Origin: a virus
Virus record (IMG/VR): IMGVR_UViG_3300013089_000002
Span: 1 to 29,980 of that record
Strand: one strand, 5' to 3'
Length of the DNA stretch: 29,980 nucleotides
Shown here: piece after piece, positions 10,157 through 29,129 of the stretch
How positions within the stretch are numbered: the stretch's first letter is position 1
Layout: every line of letters begins with the position of its first letter
Notes under the pieces: model-generated
Databases searched by the model: none
Told to the model about the DNA's origin: nothing
The model's input: only the letters and a program-made list of their open reading frames with translations
Program-made: the position numbers and the translations under genes

Positions 10157-10508
10157 CGTCGGTCAACTTTATCAGTTCGTCAAGTTTCTGGGTTATGTCA
10201 AGGTTGCCTGACAGTTCGGTTCTGACTTCCCTTTTCTGTGTTACCATTTTGCTGAATAGCTTGGTTATCTGTTTGTAAGCCTCTTCAGGATTTTTGGAGA
10301 CAATTTTGCCATGCAGTTCTATCCACTGTGTTTTAATCCAATCATAGAAGTCTCCCGACTGTAGCCATGCTTTGACGTCTCGGTCGATTGTGCGGGATGT
10401 AACCCCACAGACTTTTCCAATGGCTTCATAGCTGTCTCCTTTGAGGAGTCCCTGTTTGATTGTTGGGAGTCTACGAAGAGTCTGATAGGATAGCTCAGAG
10501 ACTGACAT
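10146..10508 (-). CDS. Terminase small subunit (putative)
   Basis: 120 residues. The N-terminal half contains a helix-turn-helix: LPTIKQGLLKGDSYEAIGKV followed by CGVTSRTIDRDVKAWLQSG. The C-terminal half is helical (ITKLFSKMVTQKREVRTEL), as in small terminases that form rings and bind DNA. It overlaps the large subunit start by 11 bp and directly precedes it. One copy of the dispersed 10-bp word lies in it (10473-10482). Function is by position and HTH; a plain regulator is the alternative. Confidence 0.75.
   Translation of the reverse strand: MSVSELSYQTLRRLPTIKQGLLKGDSYEAIGKVCGVTSRTIDRDVKAWLQSGDFYDWIKTQWIELHGKIVSKNPEEAYKQITKLFSKMVTQKREVRTELSGNLDITQKLDELIKLTDDEE
10473..10482. repeat. Dispersed 10-bp word ACGAAGAGTC (first of at least 11 copies)
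   Basis: Exact copies on the + strand at 10473, 13596, 16367, 23757 and 28629, and as reverse complement (GACTCTTCGT) at 19259, 21791, 23814, 25417, 25541 and 29007. Near copies sharing the CGAAGAG core lie at 2051, 8783, 9554, 10716, 11355, 14477, 19440, 21839 and 23510. In a genome of this size about 0.06 exact copies are expected by chance. Copies inside genes fall in different frames (for example TLRR in the small terminase, ATKS at 16367, DEES at 25417), so selection seems to act on DNA, although Leu-Arg codon preference explains part. Function unknown. Confidence 0.75.
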
Positions 10509-10706
10509 TTACCGACATTCCTTCTTGAGTGTTAAGATTAGATACGCTATGTATATGAGTGCCGCTCCGACTAGGTAATGATGCGGGGTTGGAGGTCCCC
10601 ATGTTCCGCTCCATATTGGCTGTCCGTTCTGGTATGCTTGCTCATAGGCTCCCCAGAAGAATGTCATGTAGCCGAGGTTGAATAGGATGTGTGTTAGCAG
10701 TTTCAT
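10509..10706 (-). CDS. Small membrane protein, 65 residues
   Basis: Two membrane segments are likely: about residues 4-21 (THILFNLGYMTFFWGAY) and 45-61 (YLVGAALIYIAYLILTL), with a Pro/His-rich loop (WGPPTPHHY) and a basic end KKECR. The stop is joined to the start of the small terminase (TAAATG). The 164 bases upstream (10707-10870) hold no convincing gene. It and the next two membrane genes sit just before the terminases, where lysis cassettes are found in some viruses, so a holin-like role is possible. No proof of function. Confidence 0.65.
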   Translation of the reverse strand: MKLLTHILFNLGYMTFFWGAYEQAYQNGQPIWSGTWGPPTPHHYLVGAALIYIAYLILTLKKECR

Positions 10707-10870
10707 CTTTTTTTCACGAAGAGTTTTTCTGTTAGGCTCTAGGATAGAACTCTTCTGCCCTCAGTCTCCCGTAATCAATAGAACTTCAAACATAAGAGTG
10801 GTCTTCGTCGTCAACGTCTTTGAGACGGTTTTGGGCTTGCTGGAGAGTCTACTTTCCCGCCTAACAGAAG

Positions 10871-11182
10871 CTAATCGTCGAATAGGATGAAGTCCTTCAA
10901 GTTCAGCTTTTCGAGAAAACGCGTAAACGCGGAAAGACTGCTTGTGACTGTGCCATCTGAGTTCTCTCCTGTAGCTTGTTCTAGTGTTTCTTCAGCTTTT
11001 TTCCACTCGTTGCAGAATGCCATCGCCGCTTGTATCAGCGCGGGGAACGTTGCGAGAATCAGGATTTCATGGGGGGTTATGTCGAGTCTGATTAGTCCGT
11101 TTGCGGTTACGATTCCAGCGAATGTGCTGATGAACACTGCGGAGGCGTTTGCTAGGATTTTTCGGAAGTTGATTTTCTTCAA
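10871..11182 (-). CDS. Small membrane protein with holin-like layout, 103 residues
   Basis: TTG start at 11182, six bases after AGGTGA, which overlaps the stop of the preceding membrane gene. Basic N-terminus (MKKINFRK), two membrane segments (about 12-32, ASAVFISTFAGIVTANGLI; and 39-57, EILILATFPALIQAAMAF), then a charged soluble tail of 45 residues ending KDFILFDD. Two helices with a charged C-terminal tail is a common holin arrangement, but many other small membrane proteins look the same. Confidence 0.65.
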   Translation of the reverse strand: MKKINFRKILANASAVFISTFAGIVTANGLIRLDITPHEILILATFPALIQAAMAFCNEWKKAEETLEQATGENSDGTVTSSLSAFTRFLEKLNLKDFILFDD

Positions 11183-11192
11183 ACAAGTTCAC

Positions 11193-11645
11193 CTATGTTA
11201 GAACCAGAATCCAGCATGTGAGATTTGGAATCCACATTAAAGCCGTGTAGACAGCCCAATGCTTTGTGGTTGGATGGTCGAAGCTGATTTTTCCTTTGGT
11301 GATGTAGGGGAAAATGCGGGGCATCCAGTGCCATATGAACTGCCATTCGGGTATCTCTTCGTTGTGCACTAGCTTTCTGAAGCCAAAGTATATCCAGTCG
11401 AGAGATCCGCCGATCCAGCAGAGGTAGATTGTCCATGCCTTCAAAGCTGCAATCAATACATTGGGTTCGGTTAATGCAGCCAATGTAGCCAATACAGTGA
11501 CTTCAAGAGTGGTTACAATGCAATAGGTGTGGAATCTCCAGTCTGGGGGTAGTCCTTTTGCTAGGATTCCTGTGACGGTGAAGTCGCGGGCTGCTAGGAT
11601 TAGCTGATAGCAGACAATAATCAGGAGGAATGTTTGATGAAGCAT
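11193..11645 (-). CDS. Membrane protein with about four transmembrane segments
   Basis: 150 residues. Hydrophobic segments at about 4-20, 40-62, 64-90 and 130-150 (the last is WIPNLTCWILVL). A Trp/Tyr/Phe-rich loop (DWIYFGFRK, WQFIWHWMPRIF) lies between segments 3 and 4. Its start overlaps the small Cys-rich ORF at 11621-11746 in another frame. Not recognised. Grouped with the two other membrane genes before the terminases. Confidence 0.7.
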   Translation of the reverse strand: MLHQTFLLIIVCYQLILAARDFTVTGILAKGLPPDWRFHTYCIVTTLEVTVLATLAALTEPNVLIAALKAWTIYLCWIGGSLDWIYFGFRKLVHNEEIPEWQFIWHWMPRIFPYITKGKISFDHPTTKHWAVYTALMWIPNLTCWILVLT

Positions 11646-11746
11646 GACAGGTCACATTCTGCTAGGATAGGCTTGTCTATTGCGCAGAACCTTTGTCCCC
11701 GAAAGTTAGAGTATATTCTCAAGTGGCAGCATCTGGGGGTTACCAT
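11621..11746 (-). CDS. 41-residue Cys-rich peptide (zinc-knuckle-like)
   Basis: ATG at 11746, just after the stop of the preceding gene; the last 25 bp overlap the membrane gene in another frame. The peptide has five cysteines: RCCHLRIYSNFRGQRFCAID, then AECDLSCFIKHSS. The spacing (CC-x(13)-C-x(8)-C-x3-C) with aromatic residues resembles small zinc-binding peptides of archaea and their viruses. It also recalls the Cys peptide at 404-544. Too short to prove; the tight position supports it. Confidence 0.5.
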   Translation of the reverse strand: MVTPRCCHLRIYSNFRGQRFCAIDKPILAECDLSCFIKHSS

Positions 11747-11750
11747 TTTT

Positions 11751-12041
11751 TCATGTTCCAAAGCGGTTGAGGACTTCGCCATATTCATGGTTTAGGGCGT
11801 GGCTGGGCACAAATCCAAAAGTCTGCTTCAGCTTGTTTTTTAGGAGGATTTTGTAGGTGTAGATGTTGCCTTCGGGGTCTTTTCCGCATGGCTGATCTGT
11901 GTACACGATTTCTCCATTAATGATGTCTCGCCAACTATAGTCAAGGACAATGTTTCGGGAGAGCGCAAGTTCTTGTTGGTGGCGTGTTAGGCGTTCTTGA
12001 TCTTTTATTCGCTTTGATTTAGCTCGTGTCATCTTACTCAC
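11751..12041 (-). CDS. Unknown 96-residue basic protein, first gene of the late operon
   Basis: Start is GTG at 12041 or ATG at 12032. The N-terminal 30 residues are basic (TRAKSKRIKDQERLTRHQQEL); the remainder looks like a small folded domain (SWRDIINGEIVYTDQPCGKD, then YTYKILLKNKLKQTFGF). It lies about 60 bases after a likely late start site. Not recognised; a nucleic-acid binding role is possible from charge only. Confidence 0.65.
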   Translation of the reverse strand: MSKMTRAKSKRIKDQERLTRHQQELALSRNIVLDYSWRDIINGEIVYTDQPCGKDPEGNIYTYKILLKNKLKQTFGFVPSHALNHEYGEVLNRFGT

Positions 12042-12125
12042 GTCGATACTTTACAGAGGATTTTCACCCCGCTTTCGTTCTGAGTGGATTGCAGGAGAAG
12101 GGAACGGGCTTAGCTGGGACAGAGC

Positions 12126-12133
12126 TATATATT
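12126..12133 (-). promoter_or_regulatory. Candidate TATA box for leftward late genes
   Basis: The minus strand reads AAATATATAG here, in a 102-bp gap (12042-12143) between two leftward genes. A start about 25 bases downstream (near 12103) would give a leader of about 60 bases for the gene at 12041 and could drive the terminase and head genes. The box is seen; use as the late promoter is inference. Confidence 0.45.
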
Positions 12134-12143
12134 TGTTTAGAAG

Positions 12144-12254
12144 CTATTGGTATTTAAGTTTTTCAAAGATTAACGATGCTGAATAGTCTTGCAGATACAA
12201 TTCCTTGAATTTTTCTTTCTGTTCCTCTGTTAATTTTTTTCTATGTTTTTTCAT
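12144..12254 (-). CDS. 36-residue basic peptide
   Basis: ATG at 12254 overlaps the stop of the zinc-ribbon gene (ATGA). The peptide is MKKHRKKLTEEQKEKFKEL followed by YLQDYSASLIFEKLKYQ. It looks like the start of a helix-turn-helix but is short. Coupling to the gene before it supports translation. Function unknown. Confidence 0.45.
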   Translation of the reverse strand: MKKHRKKLTEEQKEKFKELYLQDYSASLIFEKLKYQ

Positions 12255-12496
12255 TCTTTTTTGTTTCTCCTTTTCATAATTCGCAAATACATTTCACGAT
12301 CTCTTCTTTCTATTTCATCGAGCCTATCCAATAAACGGATTGCCTCGTTTCTAGGCACATCTACTGATATCTCATCAGCTAATACTATGTGAAATAGTAG
12401 TCTTTCGCCGCATTTTTGGCAACAGTAGCGTGTTGTGTTCATGTATAACGTTTCACAGTTCATGCAGTAACTATCGAGTTTTCTATGAGTTGGCAT
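12251..12496 (-). CDS. Zinc-ribbon protein, 81 residues
   Basis: The N-terminal part has two Cys pairs: YCMNCETLYMNTTRYCCQKCGERLL reduced here as C-x2-C ... C-C-x2-C, a classic zinc ribbon (about residues 11-33). The C-terminal part is a charged helix (AIRLLDRLDEIERRDREMYL) that may form a coiled coil. The ATG overlaps the upstream stop (TAATG). Likely a regulator or adaptor of the leftward early transcript. Confidence 0.7.
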   Translation of the reverse strand: MPTHRKLDSYCMNCETLYMNTTRYCCQKCGERLLFHIVLADEISVDVPRNEAIRLLDRLDEIERRDREMYLRIMKRRNKKE

Positions 12497-12675
12497 TATT
12501 CAATTCGTTCCTCCTTTTGTAGCAGCTGTTCAATCAACCCTAAATCCTCCTTGATTTGAGGCAGATTATATTTACATCTGTGAAGCAGCACCGAGAAGCC
12601 GTCTAGGCATTCCCCTGTTTCTAGGTATCTTTTGATTGTGCGTTTTTCTTTTGGTGATAGTATGTAGAGTCTCAT
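12496..12675 (-). CDS. 59-residue protein, first leftward gene after the divergent promoter
   Basis: ATG at 12675, about 31-38 bases from a strong TATA box (12706-12713 on the minus strand), giving a very short leader. The product MRLYILSPKEKRTIKRYLETGE is followed by a helical part ending in LLQKEERIE with the ribosome site for the next gene inside (AAAAGGAGGAA). The region LSPKEKRTIKRYLE resembles a small helix-turn-helix end. Probably a regulator, but not recognised. Confidence 0.65.
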   Translation of the reverse strand: MRLYILSPKEKRTIKRYLETGECLDGFSVLLHRCKYNLPQIKEDLGLIEQLLQKEERIE

Positions 12676-12698
12676 GGTTGTTCAGTATTTCTATGGTT

Positions 12699-12750
12699 GT
12701 ATTATCTTATATAGTTTACTCTCAGGGTAATGTTTATAAGACGATAATAC
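12699..12750. promoter_or_regulatory. Symmetrical divergent promoter region
   Basis: Two TATA boxes face away from each other: CTTATATA at 12706-12713 (leftward) and TTTATAAG at 12733-12740 (rightward). Each is joined to one arm of a perfect 8-bp inverted repeat, GTATTATC at 12699-12706 and GATAATAC at 12743-12750. Predicted starts are near 12684 (left) and 12763 (right). The rightward leader holds GGTGAT before the ATG at 12776. One dimeric repressor could bind both arms and switch both operons. Confidence 0.6.
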
Positions 12751-12775
12751 CATTACAGTAATCGGTGATGCGGAA

Positions 12776-13078
12776 ATGAAAGTAACATTACAGTGGAAAG
12801 ACGGCGATGTTTGGCGTGAGGTGAAGTGTGAGCTTCGCTACAGCCGAAACGGTAACATGTTTGTGAAGCATGATGGAAAGGTGTATGTTTTCCCCAACCT
12901 CAAAGAGGACAACGATGTTGTAACCAAGATAGATGGTAAATGGGAGAAGGCGGGCAGGGTAACTAGCGGCGTGATTTTTCTTGGTGAGGGCGAAAGCTAC
13001 AGGGAATATAACCACAGAATGTATTTGGAAAGAAAGGCGAGAGGCGAATCCCGATGGATTCCACCAAAAATGAGTTGA
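12776..13078 (+). CDS. Unknown 100-residue basic protein, first early gene
   Basis: ATG at 12776 with GGTGATGCGGAA just upstream and a TATA box 36-43 bases before. The product is beta-rich: MKVTLQWKDGDVWREVKCEL, GNMFVKHDGKVYVFP, then WEKAGRVTSGVIFLGEGE and a basic helical end. It may be a small SH3- or Sm-like fold. Not recognised. As the first gene of the early operon it is a candidate early regulator or host-takeover protein. Confidence 0.7.
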   Translation: MKVTLQWKDGDVWREVKCELRYSRNGNMFVKHDGKVYVFPNLKEDNDVVTKIDGKWEKAGRVTSGVIFLGEGESYREYNHRMYLERKARGESRWIPPKMS

Positions 13079-13085
13079 TGCGGAA

Positions 13086-13184
13086 ATGAGTAGTTTAGAT
13101 AAGATGGATGAGAGGCTTAAGGCGATTCTGGAAGCGGGAAAAAGGCTCACTAAAGAATCGTTGTTCAAGGAGGCAACAGCGTGA
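13086..13184 (+). CDS. 32-residue helical peptide
   Basis: ATG at 13086, preceded by a copy of TGATGCGGAAATGA (also at 12766 and 15684). The peptide MSSLDKMDERLKAILEAGKR is followed by LTKESLFKEATA. AAGGAGGC in the KEA codons is the ribosome site for the next gene, whose GTG overlaps the stop (GTGA). Function unknown. Confidence 0.55.
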   Translation: MSSLDKMDERLKAILEAGKRLTKESLFKEATA

Positions 13185-13348
13185 CTGTTGACGATCTAAC
13201 GTTAGATGAGCTTCTGAAATCCATTGAGAACAAAACTGGTCCATACAGTATGGATCACCTCAAACACGCTGAGAACGTTATCAATCAAAGCAGTAAGTAT
13301 GCGAAAGAAATCAGAAAACGGTTGCTTCATGGAGAGACACTGAAATGA
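13181..13348 (+). CDS. 55-residue helical protein
   Basis: GTG at 13181 overlapping the previous stop, ending in ATGA overlap with the next gene. The product has helices DDLTLDELLKSIEN and MDHLKHAENVINQSSKY and a basic end. Not recognised. Tight coupling on both sides supports translation. Confidence 0.6.
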   Translation: MTVDDLTLDELLKSIENKTGPYSMDHLKHAENVINQSSKYAKEIRKRLLHGETLK

Positions 13349-13569: not shown

Positions 13570-13779
13570 TTGAGGTTGGATTGGAGAGCGCTTTCACGAA
13601 GAGTCTTGGCTGTTGCAAAAGAGGGAGGCTGTTCTGATTGGGGTTGTTACATTGATGCTGTTGCTGGTAACAACCATGAAGCCGAAGTTGAAGACGTGTA
13701 TCGTTATGGCGCAAAAGTTTCTAAGGAAATCGCTGAAGTGTTGTTCCCTAATTTCAAGGATTTACGATACCGAGGATAA
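13570..13779 (+). CDS. 69-residue protein of unknown function
   Basis: TTG start at 13570 directly after the previous TAG, with GAGGAGGC 8-14 bases upstream. The product RLDWRALSRRVLAVAKEGG is followed by CSDWGCYIDAVAGNNHEAE and a helical end (VSKEIAEVLFPNFKDL). A copy of the 10-bp word lies at 13596-13605. Not recognised. Confidence 0.6.
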   Translation: MRLDWRALSRRVLAVAKEGGCSDWGCYIDAVAGNNHEAEVEDVYRYGAKVSKEIAEVLFPNFKDLRYRG

Positions 13780-13796
13780 TAGTTAGGTGAAATAGC

Positions 13797-14015: not shown

Positions 14016-14020
14016 AGAGG

Positions 14021-14176: not shown

Positions 14177-14210
14177 TATACTCCTGCATGTTTGTATTTT
14201 ATTAATAGAT

Positions 14211-14218: not shown

Positions 14219-14401
14219 CCTGATATGTAGATGAAAGAGGCGGACACGGTTTGAAGCATGGTAGTTCATCCACTTGCATCTTACAAAATGGATCGGCATA
14301 CAATAGTTTCAGTTGTCTCTCTCCACTATCCGCCATTACTTTCCACAAACTATCTTTTAGACATATCTCTAATTATCATAAGGCATTTCGGAGGTATTTT
14401 T

Positions 14402-15554: not shown

Positions 15555-15697
15555 TGCAGACTATAAAACTGTTCAAACTAGCAGACCTCAAAGGCAAGAT
15601 AAACGATAACGACTGGCAAATCAAAGAACTCAGAAAGGCGATGCGTGAGCGGGATCACAGAACCGCAGAAGCCCTCCGTTTGGTGATGCGGAAATGA
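15554..15697 (+). CDS. 47-residue helical peptide
   Basis: ATG at 15554 (TGATG overlap), ending in the ATGA overlap with the nuclease gene. MQTIKLFKLADLKGKINDND is followed by WQIKELRKAMRERDHRTAE. Its last codons form the third TGATGCGGAAATGA copy. Function unknown. Confidence 0.55.
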   Translation: MQTIKLFKLADLKGKINDNDWQIKELRKAMRERDHRTAEALRLVMRK

Positions 15698-16065
15698 GCT
15701 ACACACGATTCGTTGACCCCGCCCAAGACTACAGTGTTTCGGATGTGGAGATAAAGATTTTCTCTGAACTTTGTGTCTCTGGAGTAGGCTTACAGCCGAT
15801 AGAGACGCAGAAAGAGTTCTGTCTCTTATCCACAAAACCAGACTTCTATTTTCCAGATGTGAACTTGGCGGTTTACATCGACGGAGAACAGATTCACAGG
15901 AAACGGGAAGCCAGAGACCTTGAACTTAGGGAGCTGCTGAAGAAGCGGTACGGTTGCACGGTACGAAGCTACAGTTACAAGGCTCCGATAACGAAGAAGC
16001 GACTGTCTGAGATTGTTGATGCGATTCGAGACGACGTTCAGGGGCTGAAGAGGATGCGGGCATAA
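15694..16065 (+). CDS. DUF559/Vsr-like PD-(D/E)xK nuclease
   Basis: 123 residues. The pattern of small Vsr/DUF559-type endonucleases is present: SDVEIKIFSEL with E19, KPDFYFPDVNLAVYIDGE with P49-D50 and D63-G-E65, H68 and R74-D75 (QIHRKREARDLELRELL), then YGCTVRSYSYK. These would give the metal site of the restriction-like fold. It may act in DNA repair, host DNA degradation or recombination. ATG overlaps the previous stop. The nuclease family is likely; target unknown. Confidence 0.75.
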   Translation: MSYTRFVDPAQDYSVSDVEIKIFSELCVSGVGLQPIETQKEFCLLSTKPDFYFPDVNLAVYIDGEQIHRKREARDLELRELLKKRYGCTVRSYSYKAPITKKRLSEIVDAIRDDVQGLKRMRA

Positions 16066-16121
16066 TGGCAAAGAAGTACGAGTGTGAGGACTGCAACAGA
16101 AAGTTCCAGAGCCGAAGCTGA
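16065..16121 (+). CDS. 18-residue peptide, remnant or micro zinc finger
   Basis: ATG at 16065 overlaps the nuclease stop (TAATG); TGA overlaps the next ATG. The peptide MAKKYECEDCNRKFQSRS looks like the first half of a C2H2 zinc finger (C-x2-C, F) cut short. It may be a truncated zinc-finger gene or a coupling peptide. Confidence 0.4.
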   Translation: MAKKYECEDCNRKFQSRS

Positions 16122-16585
16122 TGGATGTTATGCGGGAAATCAAAACCCTCAGAGCAGATTTTGGCGTTTTAAGTCAAGCGGTGAAGGCGCTCGGAAAAGA
16201 TGTGTTAGCCAAGAATGAACGCGCAGAAGCGGTTTACGGTGACATGGTTGCGAAGATGAGTAACTTGCAGGACGCTTTCATCAAAACGTTGACTGTAACG
16301 AAAGTATCGAATGTTACGAATGTATCGAAAGTTACGAAGCAGCCACAAAACAGCCACAATGTAGCTACGAAGAGTCAGTTTGACCCCGCCGACCTCATGC
16401 AACATCAATGGAAGAGAGGCAAAAAAAAGCCAGACGGCACATACGATAGAGGCAGCCTTTCTTATGGTTGGGATTTCAAGAAGAACTTTAAACCCGAAAC
16501 AGTAGCAGTTCTTCCCTTAACTATTGCTGGCTACGATTTTGGTGTGAACGGCGATTTCGTGAACACGAAGAAGGCGAAACAATGA
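16121..16585 (+). CDS. 154-residue protein with Val-Thr/Ser repeat segment
   Basis: N-terminal helix with coiled-coil look (MREIKTLRADFGVLSQAVKA), then an internal repeat VTKVSNVTNVSKVTK at about residues 58-73, made by near-tandem ACGAA(A/T)GTATCGAA DNA. The C-terminal part FDPADLMQHQWKRGKKKPDG and GSLSYGWDFKKNFKPETV may be folded. The 10-bp word lies at 16367-16376. Not recognised. Confidence 0.65.
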   Translation: MDVMREIKTLRADFGVLSQAVKALGKDVLAKNERAEAVYGDMVAKMSNLQDAFIKTLTVTKVSNVTNVSKVTKQPQNSHNVATKSQFDPADLMQHQWKRGKKKPDGTYDRGSLSYGWDFKKNFKPETVAVLPLTIAGYDFGVNGDFVNTKKAKQ

Positions 16586-16725
16586 AGTTTTGGAGAAAAA
16601 AGTCAAAGTCAGACGAAACCGAGATTTCCATCACCAAAGCGGATTTGAAATCCCAGAAGTCTTTCTATGTGAAGGCTCAAACATCTGAAAAAGCAATGGA
16701 AATTATCAGGAAGCTACAGACATGA
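16582..16725 (+). CDS. 47-residue basic peptide
   Basis: ATG at 16582 within overlap, TGA in ATGA overlap with the next gene. MKFWRKKSKSDETEISITKAD is basic at the start and ends in a helix (SEKAMEIIRKLQT). Unknown. Position between coupled genes supports it. Confidence 0.55.
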   Translation: MKFWRKKSKSDETEISITKADLKSQKSFYVKAQTSEKAMEIIRKLQT

Positions 16726-17018
16726 GTCTTTCCGATTTTTTCAGAGGCAGCGACTACAGTCCCGAACTTGACGGCAAACGGTTGACAGGGCAAATCCGCA
16801 GAATCCACGATCTAATGAAAGACGGAAGATGGAGAACCCTGTCTGAAATCGAATTTTACACGGGAGACCCACAAGCAAGCATATCCGCTCAGCTGCGGAA
16901 TCTTCGTAAGCCAGAGTTCGGAAGCCATATCATAGTGAAACGTCGCAGAGGCGAGCCATCGCATGGACTGTGGGAGTATCGCATGGCAAAAGGAGAATTG
17001 AAAATTGAGGATGAGTGA
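16722..17018 (+). CDS. Winged-helix protein, 98 residues
   Basis: The core IRRIHDLMKDGRWRTLSEIE, then TGDPQASISAQLRNLRKPEF and HIIVKRRRGEPSHGLWEYRM match a winged helix: helix 2, recognition helix and basic wing. Archaeal and viral versions act as regulators or replication adaptors. The gene overlaps the ATPase gene, so it may serve that protein at a DNA site. Confidence 0.7.
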   Translation: MSLSDFFRGSDYSPELDGKRLTGQIRRIHDLMKDGRWRTLSEIEFYTGDPQASISAQLRNLRKPEFGSHIIVKRRRGEPSHGLWEYRMAKGELKIEDE

Positions 17019-18681: not shown

Positions 18682-18695
18682 AGGGGTTAACAAAA

Positions 18696-18908: not shown

Positions 18909-19382
18909 ATGACAAGCATTCTTTTAGACAAGAAACGAAAGGGGCTTCTTTTTTTGAGAGCAATTGATTGGAGCTATAGACTATACCTCGACCGCAAACT
19001 GTACCTAGCAGCCATTCGATTACAAGCAGACAGAAAACTTTCAAAATCCAAAGCTGGATTACTCGCCCTAGTTGAAGGACTGCACAATCTCGGCTATCTT
19101 GCGAACGCAGACTATGAAGTATACAAGAACAAGTACTCGGTTTCGCTTGACGAAGAGGCTAACAAGCTTTCGCCGTCAGAGATTTTGAGAAAGGAGACGA
19201 AGGAAGCGCGATATCGGCAACTGAACAACCTCTACAGACAGGTTATTGCGCAGTGGGAGACTCTTCGTGTAGACGTGAAGTATTATCATGTCAAGGATGC
19301 AAAAAGTAACCTGAACCTGAAGTATGCGCGGAAGCTTGTGGAGTTGGCTGAACAGGAGACGCTGGAGCTGACCCAAAAATGA
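18909..19382 (+). CDS. 157-residue helical protein
   Basis: ATG at 18909. Almost entirely helical: KGLLFLRAIDWSYRLYLDRK, then KSKAGLLALVEGLHNLGYL, and long charged helices to the end. The LSKSKAGLLALVEGL part is like a winged-helix or helical bundle start. Its stop overlaps the next ATG. Not recognised. 10-bp word at 19259-19268. Confidence 0.65.
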   Translation: MTSILLDKKRKGLLFLRAIDWSYRLYLDRKLYLAAIRLQADRKLSKSKAGLLALVEGLHNLGYLANADYEVYKNKYSVSLDEEANKLSPSEILRKETKEARYRQLNNLYRQVIAQWETLRVDVKYYHVKDAKSNLNLKYARKLVELAEQETLELTQK

Positions 19383-19714
19383 AAGTGTGCCCAAAATGCG
19401 GATATCGAGATCCACCAATTTGGAGAAACACTTTAAGACGACTCTTCGCTGAACACTGTCATATTTCAGACCTCGAGATCTGGAATCCAGAGTTAGCTGC
19501 TGCACTAAAAGAAAAAAGATATCTCTGCATTAAAGGAGTGAAATATCGTCTAAACAAAAAAGGAGCTTATGTTCACCGTATTGACGCTTTTCTTTGTAAA
19601 TATCCAAATGAGAATGATCCACGAATTACGGAGCCTGATACTGAAAGTGGCCGTGCTAAGGCATTAGGTGTCAGAAGGAAAGGACAAACAGTTCTGGGGG
19701 AGGCTACACGATGA
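19379..19714 (+). CDS. Zinc-finger protein, 111 residues
   Basis: ATG overlaps the previous stop. MKVCPKCGYRDPPIWRN has C-x2-C; a second potential metal site is EHCHIS and later YLCIKG and FLCKYPN. The fold could be a split zinc ribbon. The C-terminal segment is basic and polar (GRAKALGVRRKGQ). Ends with GEATR, whose GGAGGCT codons are the ribosome site of the next gene. Role unknown. Confidence 0.65.
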   Translation: MKVCPKCGYRDPPIWRNTLRRLFAEHCHISDLEIWNPELAAALKEKRYLCIKGVKYRLNKKGAYVHRIDAFLCKYPNENDPRITEPDTESGRAKALGVRRKGQTVLGEATR

Positions 19715-19923
19715 CTTTTAAGCATCGAAAAGACGATGTGGCATTCGGAGTTAGATTCCGCAAAGACGTGTGGAATTTCATCGACGCGAAGATGCATAAC
19801 CGAAAGTACAATCCAAATAAACGATACAATTGGAGTGTGGCTGGCTCTCATCTTCCCTCTAAAAGTATTCACACAATCATTGATGAGTTGTTGCGGAAGC
19901 TGATGGAGGCTGAAACAGAATGA
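19711..19923 (+). CDS. Possible ribbon-helix-helix protein, 70 residues
   Basis: ATG within ATGA overlap. DDVAFGVRFRKDVWNFIDAK is a strand-helix start typical of RHH proteins, with an inserted basic loop, then SKSIHTIIDELLRKLMEAE as the second helix. Not certain. Coupled on both sides. Confidence 0.6.
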   Translation: MTFKHRKDDVAFGVRFRKDVWNFIDAKMHNRKYNPNKRYNWSVAGSHLPSKSIHTIIDELLRKLMEAETE

Positions 19924-20521: not shown

Positions 20522-20534
20522 GGTCTGACAGAAA

Positions 20535-21425: not shown

Positions 21426-21447
21426 TGTTGGAGGTTCAGAAACAAAA

Positions 21448-21701: not shown

Positions 21702-21802
21702 AGCGGCTAATCGTTAAACTGCATCAAGGAGAATCGCTTACACAAGAAGAGGACAGTTTCTGTTTAGGGTTAAAGGAGGAGTTAGAAAGTGACTCTTCGT
21801 AG
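21674..21802 (+). CDS. 42-residue helical peptide, last early gene
   Basis: ATG at 21674 overlapping the previous gene. MSKGLSKTIKRLIVKLHQGE followed by SLTQEEDSFCLGLKEEL; ends SDSS. The stop codon lies at the end of a copy of the 10-bp word (GACTCTTCGT). Unknown. Confidence 0.5.
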   Translation: MSKGLSKTIKRLIVKLHQGESLTQEEDSFCLGLKEELESDSS

Positions 21803-21870
21803 CTATCGTTGACTTAGAATAAACAACAAAAAAAGCTTACGAAGAGCCTTTAGGGGGTTTCTATTTTTTT
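21791..21870. terminator. Bidirectional terminator between convergent arms
   Basis: An inverted repeat CTCTTCGTA (21793-21801) with TACGAAGAG (21838-21846) sits between the rightward stop (21802) and the leftward stop (21850). T7 runs follow for each direction: T7 on the + strand at 21864-21870 and T7 on the minus strand at 21834-21828. The stem is made of two copies of the dispersed 10-bp word. Confidence 0.6.
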
Positions 21871-22062: not shown

Positions 22063-22079
22063 CCTTTCTTTTCCCCTCC

Positions 22080-23735
22080 TTACGCTGGAATCGCCATCCA
22101 CTCAAAATTTACTGCTACACCAGCAGCAGCAGTTTCTTCCGTGTATAAGTCAACTGCTGGTTCGTCAGAGTTGATTAAGACTGCACCGCAAATCTCGCTT
22201 GTTCCACCTATATTTCTGAGGTCTAAAGCTCTGATATAAGGCGCAATTTGCGTGCTCCCCGTTGCTCCATTGTGGTTGTGCGCCTGAACGGTGTGGCTGT
22301 GGACGCTTGACGCTACTGTTGTAGTGCCGCTGTCGGGGCCAGATGTCTGGCTCTGGTTCTCTGTAGGTATAGTGTGGTTGTGTTGACCAAGTGGATGAGC
22401 ATGAGACGCTACGGTATGGATGTGTGTTCCGGAGGCGGGATACACCTGATAACTGCTCGTAACCTTGCATAGTGCATGCCCAAGCTCGCAGGGACCAGAA
22501 AGCGGCACATTAACTTCCTGTGTTGCGGATGGGGTACCAGTCGCTGGTGCAGAGTACCCAGTTGATGTAGGTCCGCCCGTTCCCGTTGATCCGCCATGAT
22601 TATGCGCCTGAACGGTGTGGCTGTGTATGGGACCAGCAACATCTTCTGTTCCGCCGGGCATGTCTGGTCCGCTAGTCTGTGATTGGTTCTCGGTATTTAT
22701 GGTGTGGCTATGGGTTGCTCCTGCTCCGCTTGCTCCGATAGCGCCTATTTTGTGTTTATGGGTTTCTAGGATTTTTGCTTTTACAACAAATTGAGTGGTA
22801 GACTTGGAAACAACAACGATAGTTATCATCCTTCCAGCTGCATCTATTACCGACGGAAGAACTTTAGGCACATTATCGAACTCTTCATCAAAGGTTACTG
22901 TTCTGTCTCCATTAGCGTCTGTAGTGTTTGCACCTGATACAATTTCTCCTCCGGGTGGCGCGCCATTGATTGTTGTTAATTCTATATCTCTTACGGCAAT
23001 ATCGACTAAATTGCTTTCTATGTCAACGAAATGGTATCTGTCGAATCCTAGAAACGCGGAGGAAAGAATCGTTTTAGGCGGGTCATCTGGTCCCGTAAGA
23101 CCATGACTAACCATAACAGCGCCGCCTCCCGGTTGTGTCGCCCAATCAGCGTTAGTTACTCCGCCGCCTGTGCCGCTTGGAATCGTTATAGTGGAGCCTG
23201 AAGCAATCGGGTAATACCCGACTAGCCACCATGTGGGAGCGGTTGGGTCTTCCGGATCTACGCTTGTGGGAAGATTAAGGTAGTCGGTTTCGCTGTTCCA
23301 GTATCCTACCAGAGTGCCGCTGTATACGCCATCGTCTTTTACGGTTCTGCCTATGTCCTCGGGGACGGCGGGCGTGTATGTTCCGCCAAAAGTTATGTAA
23401 ATTCTGCTTGCGGAACCTAAGAATCCTTGACTGAAAACGTCCTTCTGGCACCAGAATCCCTGCTCAATATGAAAGAATGGGTTGTATTCGTCGGGATAAG
23501 CCATGTCCTCGAAGAGTTGAATTTGCAGGTCTAACCAGTTGTTTTTATCGGTTTCTTTTAGTCTAAGAAAACCATCAACGATTTGTATGCTCGGAAGATT
23601 CCAGAGGTCAATATTATTGGATGCTGCTGCCGTCGCCGATATTGTGCCGCCCTGTTTGGATTGCTGATTTTCTAGTTTCTGTAGTCTGTCCAGTATCTCT
23701 TTCAATGTTTTTTCTAGACGCTGTAGGTCAGTCAT
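22080..23735 (-). CDS. Tail fibre / receptor-binding protein with HxH repeats
   Basis: 551 residues with GAGGT seven bases before the ATG. N-terminal coiled coil (LEKTLKEILDRLQKLENQQS). Residues 60-250 are beta-rich. Residues 279-320 (TVTFDEEFDNVPKVLPSVID and the following VVSKSTTQFVV) look like an H-type lectin domain. Residues 322-490 hold nine HxH motifs (HKH 326, HSH 342, HSH 371, HNH 378, HIH 438, HAH 445, HNH 452, HSH 479, HNH 486). In phage fibre tips (such as T4 gp37) HxH motifs of three chains bind iron. The unit is duplicated: ENQSQTSGPD then HSHTVQAHNH occurs twice (about 350-380 and 460-488). It is the last large tail gene and is likely the host-recognition fibre. Confidence 0.82.
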   Translation of the reverse strand: MTDLQRLEKTLKEILDRLQKLENQQSKQGGTISATAAASNNIDLWNLPSIQIVDGFLRLKETDKNNWLDLQIQLFEDMAYPDEYNPFFHIEQGFWCQKDVFSQGFLGSASRIYITFGGTYTPAVPEDIGRTVKDDGVYSGTLVGYWNSETDYLNLPTSVDPEDPTAPTWWLVGYYPIASGSTITIPSGTGGGVTNADWATQPGGGAVMVSHGLTGPDDPPKTILSSAFLGFDRYHFVDIESNLVDIAVRDIELTTINGAPPGGEIVSGANTTDANGDRTVTFDEEFDNVPKVLPSVIDAAGRMITIVVVSKSTTQFVVKAKILETHKHKIGAIGASGAGATHSHTINTENQSQTSGPDMPGGTEDVAGPIHSHTVQAHNHGGSTGTGGPTSTGYSAPATGTPSATQEVNVPLSGPCELGHALCKVTSSYQVYPASGTHIHTVASHAHPLGQHNHTIPTENQSQTSGPDSGTTTVASSVHSHTVQAHNHNGATGSTQIAPYIRALDLRNIGGTSEICGAVLINSDEPAVDLYTEETAAAGVAVNFEWMAIPA

Positions 23736-23756
23736 GGTTGTACCTCACATAAAGTT

Positions 23757-23823
23757 ACGAAGAGTCTATCTCTCATTGAATCAGATAGAATTTACTTCCA
23801 CAAAAGGCATATAGACTCTTCGT
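23757..23823. promoter_or_regulatory. Inverted repeat of the 10-bp word in a divergent gap
   Basis: A perfect 13-bp inverted repeat, ACGAAGAGTCTAT at 23757-23769 and ATAGACTCTTCGT at 23811-23823, lies between the fibre gene (leftward) and the small membrane gene (rightward). The 41-base loop holds an AT-rich stretch and GCATATAG, a possible TATA for the rightward gene. It may be an operator, a terminator hairpin or a recombination site. Confidence 0.6.
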
Positions 23824-23847
23824 GGAATAGGAGTATAGGGGAAGAGA

Positions 23848-24096
23848 ATGAGGAAAGAAGTTGTAGTCTTGGGGTTTATTCTACTGGTGATTGCATGGAT
23901 ACTGGCTGTTTTTCCAGAGCGAACGCCCGAGTCTCTTTATTATGAAAGAACAATTGATGGCTTTCATGCGAATTTCCCTGATGATTATTGGTGTCCATAT
24001 AAAAATTGGGGGATTATTGTTGGATTAATAGGGTTTGTCACTTTCATTATCGGCAGTTACATGCCAAATCAAAGTACTTCAGACACGGTTAATTGA
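23848..24096 (+). CDS. Two-span membrane protein, lone rightward gene in the tail module
   Basis: 82 residues; ATG at 23848 with AGGGGAAGAG upstream. Membrane segments at about 4-22 (EVVVLGFILLVIAWILAVF) and 54-73 (WGIIVGLIGFVTFIIGSYM); the loop between (YYERTIDGFHANFPDDYWCP) is aromatic and acidic. It overlaps the 3' end of the hub gene by 28 bp on the opposite strand. A self-contained gene with its own promoter in a late module is typical of a moron; superinfection exclusion is a common role for such membrane proteins, but this is inference. Confidence 0.65.
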   Translation: MRKEVVVLGFILLVIAWILAVFPERTPESLYYERTIDGFHANFPDDYWCPYKNWGIIVGLIGFVTFIIGSYMPNQSTSDTVN

Positions 24097-26066
24097 GCCT
24101 TCCAATTCACGCCAACAATCAAATGCTCAACCGCTATGATACGAAAGCTATCAACTCCGTCACTCATAATATCTCCAACTTGGTAACGTGCATCCCCTTC
24201 CACAATGAACGGTTCAATTGTAATCGGAACGTCTTTTTTAGATGCTATGACTGCGTTTGCTTTCGATTCACATTCTGCGTCGCTCATTAGTGTCTGGTCG
24301 ACTATCGGTTCAGCTTCATTGACCCCATGCTTGGCTATACTGTCAGTGTCCTCAGTACTTGCACTAAAGGGCATATCGCAGAAGTATAAGCCATCAATTA
24401 AAACCGCTATTCCCAAAGCATATTGAACTTTGAAGCATATCTGAGTTAATTGTTGCCAACTTGGATTTCCAACTTTTGTCCATTTGCCATTAGAGTTAGA
24501 GTCGGTGATTTCGCTATTAACACCCAGCGGCAAATCGATTTGTTTCCAGTCCAAGTCGAAACCTCCATGAAGCTCGATTCCTGCACTAAAATAGTTACTT
24601 GAATCTGGTGCCCATAACTGTACAACTGCGCTGTCAGGTCCAAGCCCTGTGTATCTTCGCTTTCTATGAAATTTGAGTCTTTTAGCTGCACGTTTGCCGA
24701 AACCGTAAACTGTAGGTGAGATGCTTCTGCGAAACTGTAGTGTGCCTGAAATAAAGTCTGCTTCGATTGAGCCTGTTCCTTCCACGTAATAGTCAGTGTT
24801 AAAGACCAGAGGTTCGCCACTATCTACTGTCCATCCGTCCGTTGACTCCGTCCAAGACTCATCAGAAGGAATCTTCTTTCCTGTTGCTCCGTACACTTTC
24901 TGTCGGTTGACTACTCGGTGCGGATCTATTACTTTCACTGCACTCTCTAATGTCGGCGATACTGGACAGATGAAATCTTGGCTCTCTCTGAGATGTCCTA
25001 TAAGACATCCTGAAGCTGTCTCGAAAACGTCGAAGCCTATCACATCAGACGGGTTAGATGCCTTCTCGGCGATTTCCTGAACACCCTTAAGCGGCTGAAC
25101 CTCATCATATTCTACACTGTGCTGCGATGACATGCGGTCGTCGGTGTCTGCGATTTGGCTTCCAGAATGTCCGCCGTCGAACCATCCCACCGCATGAGGA
25201 TACTTGGATAGGTAACCGCACAAGTCTAAGGTGTCATCTATGATTGTGTCGCCGTACTCACCTTCATACAGTTTGTACACCAGTTCTGGTGAGGCGAACA
25301 GCTCCGAGGCGTGACCCAGCAATTCAACAATAACATCTGCAACGTTGTAGGCGTAGTAGTCCTGTTTGATGGAAGCTATCTTGCCGCCGAAAAGTTTGCT
25401 GTCCAAATCAGTTAATGACTCTTCGTCGCGAGCCGCCCAGATTATGCCAAAGCCGCAGTCATCCAAGTTCAGGTATGTGTCGCCCAGATCAAGAAAGTTG
25501 CTTAGCGTAACCGTTGCGCTGCTCACCTCGTCGTTAAGGAGACTCTTCGTGACTGTTATCGTGTCCTCCAGGTCTGCGCTTGTTGGGAAAAAGGCTTTCT
25601 TGCATATTACGAGATAATCGACGGTGACTGTGTCGTCTGGGCTTCCCGTACAGTAGATTCTAAGCCCCTTGATTGCTCCCTCATAAAACTCTGTCAAGTC
25701 CTCAACCGTGAATCTTTCGGCTTCTGTGCCCGTGTAGACTGAAACCCAACCACTATCTGAAGCCTTCTGGATTTGCACCACAAAGTTGGTTGCGCTGAAG
25801 CTTGTGACTCTGCCGACAAGCACAGGATAATCTACCGTGCTAAAACTGTCAAAAGAAGTCGTGAGAAACTGCTCTGTCTCTCCCGCCTGAATCGTCAAAA
25901 CCGCAGAATCAGCTTGGTTGCTCAATCCAGCCGAAGGCGAACCAGCCCAGTCACCCTTCAAAAAGTGATCCCAAAACGCATGAACCACACGATCATTAGA
26001 GTCTGTGTATGTGGGGCACTCCACAAAAAATTCTGCATTCACTTTTGCGGGGAGAACAGCAGTCAC
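24069..26066 (-). CDS. Baseplate hub / tail-associated protein with carbohydrate-binding insert
   Basis: 665 residues. GTG overlaps the tape-measure stop. Residues 190-260 have the shape of tail hub proteins: ITVTKSLLNDEVSSATVTLS, then KLFGGKIASIKQDYYAYNVA and VIVELLGHASELF. A middle beta domain at about 400-540 (GSIEADFISGTLQFRRSISP, PSWQQLTQICFKVQYALGIA) resembles a carbohydrate-binding jelly roll. The end returns to the hub pattern: ARYQVGDIMSDGVDSFRIIA and VNWKAQLTVSEVL. It would form the tail tip after the tape measure. The long length and the inserted domain suggest that it also contacts the cell surface. Confidence 0.75.
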   Translation of the reverse strand: MTAVLPAKVNAEFFVECPTYTDSNDRVVHAFWDHFLKGDWAGSPSAGLSNQADSAVLTIQAGETEQFLTTSFDSFSTVDYPVLVGRVTSFSATNFVVQIQKASDSGWVSVYTGTEAERFTVEDLTEFYEGAIKGLRIYCTGSPDDTVTVDYLVICKKAFFPTSADLEDTITVTKSLLNDEVSSATVTLSNFLDLGDTYLNLDDCGFGIIWAARDEESLTDLDSKLFGGKIASIKQDYYAYNVADVIVELLGHASELFASPELVYKLYEGEYGDTIIDDTLDLCGYLSKYPHAVGWFDGGHSGSQIADTDDRMSSQHSVEYDEVQPLKGVQEIAEKASNPSDVIGFDVFETASGCLIGHLRESQDFICPVSPTLESAVKVIDPHRVVNRQKVYGATGKKIPSDESWTESTDGWTVDSGEPLVFNTDYYVEGTGSIEADFISGTLQFRRSISPTVYGFGKRAAKRLKFHRKRRYTGLGPDSAVVQLWAPDSSNYFSAGIELHGGFDLDWKQIDLPLGVNSEITDSNSNGKWTKVGNPSWQQLTQICFKVQYALGIAVLIDGLYFCDMPFSASTEDTDSIAKHGVNEAEPIVDQTLMSDAECESKANAVIASKKDVPITIEPFIVEGDARYQVGDIMSDGVDSFRIIAVEHLIVGVNWKAQLTVSEVL

Positions 26067-26779
26067 TTGATGCCAACCTTCCGTAACGCGCCCATAAGCT
26101 GCTCAGCGTTGCCGCCATAAACGTTGATGGTGACGTTGTTGCTGGTCTGCGTTGACGATGTGCGAAAGCTGTTTTCGGTGATGCTTTGAAGCTGTGCTGG
26201 CTTCAGAATCAGCTCATCGGGAAGCACATTGACTAGTCCGCCCGTGACGGATTGTTTCAGTCCAGTGTGCGCGGTGGGTGTTATCGCTGAGATTGTTGCG
26301 GCGGCTGTGGTTGCTGCTGCAAGCATGACGGGCAAGAAAAGGGGGTTTGCTACTGCGTTGGCGATTGCGGTTGCGACTGCCCTTGCATTTGTCGCCACTG
26401 TATTGGTGATTTGCGCTGCGGTGTTCATCCACGTGGCTGAGGTTAGGGCATCCATGACGCGTATGACGCTTCCGCCGACGGTCATTATGCTGCCCATCAG
26501 CTGAAAGGCTTTAGCTTGTTCTTCGTTGAGGAATCCGAAGGCTTTTCCGAGGTTGGCTACTCCCATGGCTGCTGTGCCAAAAATTGCGATGTCACGGCTT
26601 ACCTCTTTCAAGTTCATGCTTGTTTCTTTGAGAGTGTTATTGATTGGTTTACCCCAAAGGTCAACTTGCCGCATTTTAGCTGCCATATCTTGGCTTGCGG
26701 CTGCCATAGACGCGAATCCCGCATTCACCTGTTCAGTGCCCACTAACTCAGCATCTATTTCTACTCTTTCGCTCAACAT
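26063..26779 (-). CDS. Tape measure protein, very short (238 residues)
   Basis: ATG at 26779 overlaps the chaperone stop. N-terminal helical part (VGTEQVNAGFASMAAASQDM), a long Ala/Thr-rich hydrophobic middle (residues 70-170, with AVATAIANAVANPLFLPVML), and a polar end with NVTINVYGGNAEQLMGALRK, common at tape measure C-termini. At about 0.15 nm per residue the tail would be only about 36 nm, much shorter than most siphoviruses. Position after the chaperone pair and before the hub supports the role. Confidence 0.72.
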   Translation of the reverse strand: MLSERVEIDAELVGTEQVNAGFASMAAASQDMAAKMRQVDLWGKPINNTLKETSMNLKEVSRDIAIFGTAAMGVANLGKAFGFLNEEQAKAFQLMGSIMTVGGSVIRVMDALTSATWMNTAAQITNTVATNARAVATAIANAVANPLFLPVMLAAATTAAATISAITPTAHTGLKQSVTGGLVNVLPDELILKPAQLQSITENSFRTSSTQTSNNVTINVYGGNAEQLMGALRKVGIK

Positions 26780-27027
26780 TTACGCCTCTTTTTTCTTCTG
26801 AGAGCCTCTTCTAAGCGCTTGTTCTGTTCTTCCTCTGTTTCCTGTCCGCCGCTTTGCTGTTGATGTAACTCAGCCATGATTAGATTATAGTCAAGCTCGA
26901 AAAGGAACATTGGCGTTTCGTGGATGTTCAGCAGCTCGGAGGGTCTACGGTGCAGAATTAGCCCCATCTGGGCAGCCTTTTTCAGGGTGTTGTTTTTGGT
27001 CTCGAAAAAACTGTTCAACCCGCTCAT
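26773..27027 (-). CDS. Tail assembly chaperone, second frame
   Basis: 84 residues from ATG 27027, or fused to the upstream chaperone by frameshift in the 83-base overlap. The product MSGLNSFFETKNNTLKKAAQ contains later HRRPSELLNIHETPMFLFEL, typical of GT-type tail chaperones (a pattern like P.E....E.P..LFE.D), and ends KRLEEALRRKKRRKC. No clear ribosome site precedes the ATG. The shift needed from the first frame is +1 or -2. Confidence 0.65.
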   Translation of the reverse strand: MSGLNSFFETKNNTLKKAAQMGLILHRRPSELLNIHETPMFLFELDYNLIMAELHQQQSGGQETEEEQNKRLEEALRRKKRRKC

Positions 27028-27274
27028 TCTGAGCTAACGTCAGCTTGTTTATGGCTATGTGCAATAACGTTTCGTGTTCTGGCTTTGGAGTTGGCGATAC
27101 GCAGTCCTGCAAAAGCAGTTTGCGGATTTCAACAAGTTCTTTTCCGCGTGTTAGTCCATCCTCTATACTTTTCGCTTTCTGGTTCGCCTTCTCCGCATAC
27201 AAGGCGCTTATATAGCTGAGTTCTAGGGGAAGCGGCTGAACATCGTATTCTATGTTGTCTAACTCGATTTTCAC
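26945..27274 (-). CDS. Tail assembly chaperone, first frame
   Basis: About 109 residues from a GTG at 27274, eight bases after AGGTGA (overlapping the stop of the tail tube gene). The product starts MKIELDNIEYDVQPLPLEL and is helical (SYISALYAEKANQKAKSIED), as in gpG-like chaperones that guard the tape measure. It lies between tail tube and tape measure and overlaps the next frame by 83 bases. Confidence 0.7.
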   Translation of the reverse strand: MKIELDNIEYDVQPLPLELSYISALYAEKANQKAKSIEDGLTRGKELVEIRKLLLQDCVSPTPKPEHETLLHIAINKLTLAQNERVEQFFRDQKQHPEKGCPDGANSAP

Positions 27275-27288
27275 TTCTATTTTCACCT

Positions 27289-28248
27289 CTAGTAGGCACT
27301 TATACTATTCCGCAACAAGCCCTCAATCTCCAGTTCTTCGCTGCTGTCGTAGAATGCCCTGAATGGCGCCGAAATCTTCAAGGTCTCATTCTGGGCTCTC
27401 AGCGGCGGTGCCCCGCTACGTAGGATTTGAAGGTTATACAGATTCAATCCTAACGTGTGATAGTATGTTTCGCTGTCTCCGATGAGACTGCTTGCCACCG
27501 CAATAATCAAATCAAAGCTTGCGCTGTTTTTGAAGTTGTCAAAGTCTGTTGTGTCCTCGAATTTGAGGGTGACATTTCCCGTCACATCTCTTACCCCCAC
27601 CTCGATGTCGTTGAAGTTTCTGCCGCTTAGGTCGCCAGTGTTGAAAGGGATATTGTTTTTGATGGTTACGTCCAAGTCACAGACTACGCTGGCGCGTGTA
27701 GCATCACCATCAATGGTTATGTTGACAAGATCGTCGATTTGTGTTAGCCACTGCAGACTATCTAATGTTGGTGAAGCCACTATATCGTCTGTTGTTTCTG
27801 GGAAGCCGCTGTATATCATGGCGTTTGCCCGTACAACGTCTCCTGCCTTCCACTTCAGCTGCAACGATTCAACAAGACATCCGGGCAGAACCCGTTCAGT
27901 CTGTTCCACGCCGATTCGCACGGTGTAGCTGGGTATGGTGTCTGCGGGCGTGAAGGTGTGTGTGTAGACGCCTGTTTCTGGGTTTGCTGGTGTGCCCTCT
28001 GCGCCGAAAACAGCCATCATCAAGTCTCCTATTATGTTTTCTGGAGATACTGGAAGGTCGATTGGTCCTTGTGCCCTGTATAGTCCTCTTGTGCGTTTGC
28101 TGTATGATCTTCGTGACGTTGGGGTGGGGATTATCCAGTTTGGGTCTGCTTGGATGTTGGATGTGGCGTAGCCGTCGTAGCGGATGCTTGGGTCTGTTTC
28201 GGCTGTGCCATATTCGCCTTCTTTTCGGAATCCGATGTATCTGCTCAT
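27289..28248 (-). CDS. Major tail tube protein
   Basis: 319 residues; GGAG lies ten bases before the ATG. The beginning MSRYIGFRKEGEYGTAE and the block RTRGLYRAQGPIDLPVSPEN are typical of tail tube proteins of tailed viruses of archaea and bacteria. Many beta strands follow (TVRIGVEQTERVLPGCLVES, VNITIDGDATRASVVCDLDV). It forms the hexameric rings of the tail. Position between tail terminator and chaperone agrees. Confidence 0.82.
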   Translation of the reverse strand: MSRYIGFRKEGEYGTAETDPSIRYDGYATSNIQADPNWIIPTPTSRRSYSKRTRGLYRAQGPIDLPVSPENIIGDLMMAVFGAEGTPANPETGVYTHTFTPADTIPSYTVRIGVEQTERVLPGCLVESLQLKWKAGDVVRANAMIYSGFPETTDDIVASPTLDSLQWLTQIDDLVNITIDGDATRASVVCDLDVTIKNNIPFNTGDLSGRNFNDIEVGVRDVTGNVTLKFEDTTDFDNFKNSASFDLIIAVASSLIGDSETYYHTLGLNLYNLQILRSGAPPLRAQNETLKISAPFRAFYDSSEELEIEGLLRNSISAY

Positions 28249-28262
28249 GTTTTTTTTTCTCC

Positions 28263-28679
28263 TTATTTTTTGCGTTTTGTGTGGAGTGTGATGAAAACCG
28301 CTATGATGTTGTGGTCTTTCATGCGGTCTTTGATTTTTTCTCTGTTTTCAACCCAGCTATAAGCCACATTGCCGTCCAATGTCCTGTCTGAAGCTAATGC
28401 GGATTCGATTGCTTCGACGTAGGCGACTACTGACCTTTCCGCGGTTTCGGGGTGCTTCATGACAGGCACGATATAGAATCTGTCTTCTGTAGTCATGCTG
28501 TTGGATGCGGTTCCGGGAGTTTGTCGTCCTCCTATCCACTCTATCCATCCCCACGGGCTGGAAGGGTACTGTGTGGCTGGAGGTTCTCCGAGAAACCACT
28601 TTTTGAAGTCTGAAAGGTGTGAGTCTTCACGAAGAGTCTCAAGGATATAGTCAAGTATCGTATTCGGTGTAACACTCAA
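28263..28679 (-). CDS. Tail terminator-like protein
   Basis: 138 residues from TTG 28679 after AGGAG. Helix (ILDYILETLREDSHLSDFKK) then beta strands (EDRFYIVPVMKHPETAERSV, VAYVEAIESALASD, HNIIAVFITLHTKRKK), the alpha-beta layout of gpU/gp17-type tail terminators. It follows the HK97 gp10-like gene and precedes the tube. Good by position and pattern. Confidence 0.68.
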   Translation of the reverse strand: MSVTPNTILDYILETLREDSHLSDFKKWFLGEPPATQYPSSPWGWIEWIGGRQTPGTASNSMTTEDRFYIVPVMKHPETAERSVVAYVEAIESALASDRTLDGNVAYSWVENREKIKDRMKDHNIIAVFITLHTKRKK

Positions 28680-28691
28680 ACTTTTTTTCTC

Positions 28692-29129
28692 CTAATGATG
28701 CTGTAGCCAAATAAATCTCCACAAATCGGCTAGGTAGCCTCTGCATTGCTCCGCGGTTCTCCGTATGAAATGCTGGCCCTTGGTACCTGGGTGATGTACT
28801 TGCTTTGCGAATATGGGCTGTCCCCACTGTCCGAACCATCTGAGGGCTTTGGCGTTTCTGGGTCTGATTATGTGCGGTCGTGTGTCTTTGTCTACGTACT
28901 TGGCGTAGTCTATGTCGGGGTATGTGGTGAATCCCCGCGGAGTGTTTACTGTGGTCACGGATTCTCTGAGCATGAAAGACTTGCCGAGCGGAATCAGTTG
29001 CCGCATGACTCTTCGTGTCTCAGCCCCGCCTTCTTCCCGCCATTGAGCTAGGATAGCTTCCTCCTTTTCTGGTTCGGCATACAGGAAGGTTTGCAGTTGC
29101 TCGTCTCGGACTCTGATTCTTACGCTCAT
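28692..29129 (-). CDS. HK97 gp10-like neck / tail-completion protein
   Basis: 145 residues. N-terminal helix (EEAILAQWREEGGAETRRVM), strand TPRGFTTYPDIDYAKYVDKD, then PHIIRPRNAKALRWF and the hallmark block QVHHPGTKGQHFIRR, which is the GT/PG.P..FL.-type end of the HK97 gp10 family. These proteins fit the tail on the head. ATG within the overlap with the previous stop (ATGA). Confident family call. Confidence 0.82.
   Translation of the reverse strand: MSVRIRVRDEQLQTFLYAEPEKEEAILAQWREEGGAETRRVMRQLIPLGKSFMLRESVTTVNTPRGFTTYPDIDYAKYVDKDTRPHIIRPRNAKALRWFGQWGQPIFAKQVHHPGTKGQHFIRRTAEQCRGYLADLWRFIWLQHH

Follow-up and report, generated by a model that had tools for sequence, protein, structure and literature searches.

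A ten-letter DNA word repeated in a temperate tailed virus is concentrated at the orc1/cdc6 locus of a group of Bathyarchaeia

The ten-letter word ACGAAGAGTC occurs in 11 exact copies, against 0.06 expected, in a 29,980-base virus record from IMG/VR (the window, meaning the whole stretch analysed), and the same word is concentrated at the orc1/cdc6 origin locus in a group of Bathyarchaeia. While the sharing of the word between virus and archaea is a direct observation, we infer the protein that would bind it and the function of that protein; our tentative reading, to which we give slightly less than an even chance, is that the copies are docking sites for a host origin-associated DNA-binding protein, which the virus would exploit to maintain or replicate itself. 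The window carries genes for a large terminase, a portal, a major head protein and a tyrosine integrase, and is a temperate tailed virus.

Abundance and placement of the word in the window

Among all words of 8-12 bases in the window, ACGAAGAGTC was the most over-represented, and with at most one mismatch allowed its count rose to 20 copies compared with 2.25 expected. A preliminary description of this DNA had counted at least 11 exact copies, and we recovered 11 at the stated places; it had counted nine or more near copies (we found nine with one mismatch), and had reported two intergenic inverted pairs, 21791/21839 and 23757/23814, both of which are present. It had also argued that codons explain only part of the copies and had suggested a codon-shuffled control, which did not reproduce the counts: codon-preserving shuffles of 43 ORFs gave 0.12-0.24 copies compared with 8 coding copies observed, and no 10-mer of any kind exceeded 5 copies in any shuffle. 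Some copies do match Leu-Arg and Glu-Glu-Ser codons, and nothing further speaks for codon usage or chance; the shuffles refute that explanation, falling at least 30-fold short, and with intergenic copies and independent enrichment in relatives and host loci also against it, its probability is negligible. The sites discussed below are as follows.

10473..10482, plus strand: exact word, in ORF 10146-10508(-), a terminase small subunit-like HTH protein
13596..13605, plus strand: exact word, 26 bp inside ORF 13570-13779(+), a small protein shared with the viral genomes L009 and G259
16367..16376, plus strand: exact word, in ORF 16121-16585(+)
19259..19268, minus strand: exact word, in ORF 18909-19382(+)
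21791..21800, minus strand: exact word, in the intergenic space where convergent genes end, forming a diverging pair with 21839
21839..21848, plus strand: near copy ACGAAGAGCC, partner of 21791 in the intergenic pair
23757..23766, plus strand: exact word, within the divergent promoter region 23736-23847 (112 bp)
23814..23823, minus strand: exact word, in the same divergent promoter region 23736-23847
25417..25426, minus strand: exact word, in tail-region ORF 24069-26066(-)
25541..25550, minus strand: exact word, in tail-region ORF 24069-26066(-)
28629..28638, plus strand: exact word, about 50 bp inside ORF 28263-28679(-)
29007..29016, minus strand: exact word, in ORF 28692-29129(-)
2050..2059, plus strand: GCGAAGAGTC, in the major capsid gene, kept in L009
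7705..7714, minus strand: ACAAAGAGTC, within the portal gene; the homologous position of L009 carries the exact word (a Gln/Arg difference)
8783..8792, minus strand: GCGAAGAGTC, in the portal gene, kept in L009
19440..19449, minus strand: GCGAAGAGTC, in ORF 19379-19714(+)
10716..10725, plus strand: ACGAAGAGTT, between genes, some 10 bp upstream of ORF 10509-10706(-)

The virus consensus was RCGAAGAGKCW; base 1 of the word tolerates G, C or T predominates at base -1, and all 11 exact copies have T or A at base 11. Two positional claims of the preliminary description fared less well. Nearly even spacing between 10.5 and 21.8 kb does hold for the exact copies (post hoc P 0.005) but vanishes once one-mismatch copies are included. 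Exact copies are indeed absent from 1-10.4 kb of the window, yet this is not a trait of the virus group, the closest relative (L009) having five copies of the related 9-mer CGAAGAGTC in the homologous stretch; a gap of this length anywhere in the window has a P of 0.11. We therefore discarded both the spacing and the gap as functional features. A scan of viral contigs for a convergent pair of words found nothing.

Two divergent genes flank the pair at 23757/23814, and each copy immediately follows the TATA-like element of one of them. The first copy, read on the minus strand, forms GAGATA-GACTCTTCGT ahead of the gene starting at 23735, and the second forms GCATATA-GACTCTTCGT, immediately 3' of the TATA-like element, ahead of the gene starting at 23848. 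Because of this placement, a protein bound at the pair may also control the two promoters. These positions would suit stoperators like those of cluster A mycobacteriophages, at which a virus-encoded repressor would shut promoters and block transcription genome-wide in the latent state; the tyrosine integrase of a temperate virus, an asymmetric site of 10-12 bp in many, mostly intragenic copies, and a gene start no more than 60 bp away from 5 of the 11 exact copies (P 0.03) agree with this explanation, and two encoded proteins are candidate viral readers.

16722..17018, plus strand: winged-helix protein with a weak ArsR-type match
19711..19923, plus strand: ribbon-helix-helix-like protein (recognised by eye), 68% identical in L009

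By tblastn the winged-helix protein was not found in L009 or G259, and the ribbon-helix-helix-like protein has no sequence relative in the PDB. Orientation of the word relative to gene transcription was mixed, which argues against stoperators, and a host chromosome carrying the same word at conserved core-gene and origin-spacer positions would stay unexplained by them; we regard this alternative as unlikely.

Several other features of the viral genes were recorded. The terminase small subunit was rejected as reader of the word, being only 36% identical between the window and L009 while the word itself is identical, and the AlphaFold model of the small early protein shared by the window, L009 and G259 (13570-13779) had no PDB match. 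A 14-mer, TGATGCGGAAATGA, occurs three times in the window (12766, 13076, 15684), with two of the copies right at a predicted gene start, and is possibly a repeated translation-start context. At the 5' end of the integrase ORF, 28 of the 29 bases at 14266-14294 match a YHS-domain-like coding stretch of the archaeal genome G046 (C11:2094-2122), either as an attachment-site remnant or as a conserved-motif coincidence. Vsr-like nuclease genes are present once in the window (15694-16065) and twice in L009 (855-1226, 3812-4162), where the second lies directly downstream of the ribbon-helix-helix-like gene.

The word in related viruses

In L009, the closest relative of the window (portal 87%), the most enriched word was the 9-mer CGAAGAGTC, with 7 copies compared with 0.11 expected. 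Only two CGAAGAGTC sites are common to both genomes at the same place, and others differ by point substitutions, one of which alters an amino acid. The short relatives L011-L013 contain two copies of the word each. For G259 (TerL 71%, 37.9 kb), the top words include ACGAAGAGGC and AGACTCTTC(G) / AGACTCTTCG, representing a drifted form, RCGAAGAGKC, which is also the consensus of the virus family when G259 is included. By comparison, no CGAAGAGTC, or at most a single one, was found in G268 (MCP 83%, with a different TerL), in L040, or in those viruses related only through a HerA-like ATPase that were searched whole. The word is therefore a DNA site maintained within one virus clade with its positions turning over, since it is enriched in L009 and G259 and absent or nearly so from more distant relatives. 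The preliminary description had looked to close relatives for the word at the same places; the word is there but mostly elsewhere, as expected of a position-tolerant DNA site. In G268 a different word, ACGTAGTA, is clustered on one strand throughout and looks regulatory.

Bathyarchaeia carrying the word

Relatives of the virus point to Bathyarchaeia as the host class, with TerL homologs in a Bathycorpusculum MAG (L039) and in the genome G090. On the provirus terminase contig of G090 (L048; G090:C94:35655-37050) there is a repeat-rich stretch with units like GGCACAATAAACAAC. When the exact word was counted across 257 Bathyarchaeia genomes, with the reversed word as control, the adjacent entries G046-G053 contained 13-28 copies compared with 0-9 for the reversed word. 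These eight entries probably represent one lineage, judging from their adjacent listing and from Cdc6 identities of 83-100% (no Cdc6 match was found in G050). One of them, G051, is a complete chromosome of 2,152,501 bp and appears to be the assembly of Bathyarchaeum tardum M17C-01 given in PMC10477458. No provirus of the window's TerL type was found in G046-G053, and when the CRISPR spacers of 19 genomes between G042 and G066 were compared with the first 20 kb of the window, no match emerged; the two best short hits lay outside arrays. The shared word, together with related TerL proteins in other Bathyarchaeia, suggests that the G046-G053 group contains the host of the virus.

Concentration at the origin locus of the probable hosts

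Searching the host for the word, as the preliminary description had proposed, revealed that it marks the origin locus in this group. Copies in G047 and G051 cluster at the locus of orc1/cdc6, nurA, herA and the polymerase D small subunit (DP1), the herA and polymerase genes being assigned by eye. In G051, 11 of the 46 ACGAAGAGNC sites are found no further than 10 kb from orc1/cdc6, compared with 0.42 expected. An unbiased word search of the cdc6 locus (11-20 kb) in 22 genomes ranked ACGAAGAG or an overlapping word first in G046, G047, G049 and G051, and in none of the outgroup loci; the codon-shuffle controls were passed at the host loci also. Pooled host sites gave the consensus CACGAAGAGBCT, with T61/C19/G19 at base 9. 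Two other cdc6 loci have enriched words of their own, CTCGTAGTA in G054 (L103, 7447-10638) and ACATGTGAT in G061 (L099, 2927-14524), which may be lineage-specific counterparts.

Across the species that carry the word, site positions at the cdc6 locus are conserved, and one conserved site sits between origin recognition boxes in an otherwise diverged AT-rich origin spacer. These boxes are present both in lineages with the word and in lineages without it. Because the sister genomes G055 and G065 (about 80% Cdc6 identity) keep the boxes and have no site in the spacer, the word is not the Orc1 box.

Some host copies occur upstream of cdc6; others lie within or next to nurA, herA, a primase replication module and surface-glycan genes. 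Such a set of genes, along with the promoter position of the viral pair 23757/23814, would fit an operator of a host transcription factor, such as a replication-stress or DNA-damage regulator, through which the virus senses or exploits the state of its host. Most copies are intragenic, often several in one gene, and a dispersed regulon would not usually gather within 10 kb of a single locus; we consider a host regulon improbable, about on a par with viral stoperators. A wHTH gene between nurA and cdc6 was not favoured as reader, since it is kept in nearly all cdc6 loci examined, including those without the word. None of the ParA-like genes of G051 is near the word clusters, and ParB_N (PF02195) was not detected in seven of the eight genomes G046-G053 (G046-G048 and G050-G053), several of which are incomplete MAGs.

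Sites in G051 also show polarity: 34 of the 46 ACGAAGAGNC sites read towards the presumed origin near 1.748 Mb (P 0.0008, calculated without a strand-composition control), as do 9 of 9 exact sites on the right arm. Polar words behave in this manner and the clusters adjoin nurA-herA, as might be expected of a Chi-like or uptake-like host word gained by viruses through amelioration. However, the 2.15-Mb chromosome has 22 exact copies compared with 11 in the 30-kb virus, and its density is not genome-wide; since the host genome overall is not rich in the word, the recombination stimulator considered in the preliminary description is disfavoured and this origin of the word very unlikely. A packaging mark, considered there as well, is unlikely because the host chromosome also carries the word, while its remaining suggestion, a binding site and possibly a segregation mark, fits the evidence.

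At the scale of 3-5 kb, further clusters were found among glycosyltransferase genes in G052 (7 exact copies) and in a restriction-modification/primase region of G053 (5 exact copies). Neither has a counterpart in the G051 site list, and for that reason they are probably accessory loci or islands. Seven exact words lie in three adjacent genes of the G052 glycosyltransferase cluster (L058, 8807-11744 of G052:C8), with a codon-shuffle expectation of 0.08.

Proposed role of the word

Taken as docking sites for a host protein, the copies would form a double-stranded DNA recognition site that functions on either strand and inside genes. The reader would most likely be a sequence-specific DNA-binding protein of the host that occupies the origin region at many sites, because the word is concentrated at the orc1/cdc6-nurA-herA locus in Bathyarchaeum-type Bathyarchaeia, and the many copies on the virus and on some chromosomal islands would recruit that protein. 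Once recruited, it would probably segregate or tether this DNA with the host nucleoid, or alternatively couple replication or expression to the host origin machinery. What is observed is that the word is enriched, that related viruses maintain it while its positions turn over, that it is both enriched and conserved in position at the origin locus of the host group, and that it differs from the origin recognition boxes. One host protein that reads viral and host sites alike, and that would act in segregation or in control of the origin, would account jointly for the origin cluster, the islands and the virus. Weighing against this reading, the glycosyltransferase cluster of G052 is no obvious origin or centromere, and about 20 sites in the virus is high for a plasmid centromere. 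The more specific proposal, that Bathyarchaeum has an asymmetric centromere-like word centred on its origin and that tailed viruses and islands carry arrays of it to be handled as chromosome, is possible, though we hold it with appreciably less confidence than the general one.

Bathyarchaeia are an abundant archaeal class in which, to our knowledge, chromosome segregation and origin organisation are unexplored. Since the word both clusters at an origin and forms an array in a virus, it could (for example as CACGAAGAGTCT) serve directly as bait in a search for its reader, and Bathyarchaeum tardum is available as a cultivated enrichment. For viruses without a CRISPR or provirus trace, such a word is a sequence clue to host assignment, and it provides an example of a virus and its likely host sharing what would be a chromosome-organising signal.

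Comparison with known systems

Unlike Chi-like words, the word is not frequent chromosome-wide and is concentrated at one host locus. The archaeal origin recognition box is the site of Orc1/Cdc6 (PMC4010727). The host word resembles it in lying upstream of cdc6, and its ACGAAG slightly resembles the end of the box, but it is without the dyad plus G-rich end (TTTCCAGTAGAAAC.AAGGGGT type), and the true boxes are separate sequences in the same spacer, present also where the word is not. In cluster A mycobacteriophages, numerous asymmetric stoperator sites are scattered across the genome of a temperate phage (PMC9283540). The window similarly has multiple asymmetric sites spread over a temperate virus genome. 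Stoperators are mostly co-oriented with transcription, whereas the orientation of the word is mixed, and they are not expected on a host chromosome. With bacterial parS/ParB the word shares several origin-proximal sites that are tolerated within genes; parS is a palindrome and the word is not, and ParB_N was not found in most genomes of the host group.

SegB sites of Sulfolobales number in the tens, are short, over 80% intragenic and clustered at or near oriC1/segAB, and consist of 13-bp palindromes, TCTAGASTCTAGA, with the core AGAsTCT (PMC12284271). The word differs from them in being asymmetric, with no right half in pooled sites, and in host variation at base 9 that breaks AGAsTCT; it clusters at the cdc6 locus, and no ParA-like (SegA-type) gene was found beside the clusters. 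Like SegB sites, it is a short, mostly intragenic word clustered at an origin locus, and its 11-mer ACGAAGAGTCT contains the SegB core AGAsTCT.
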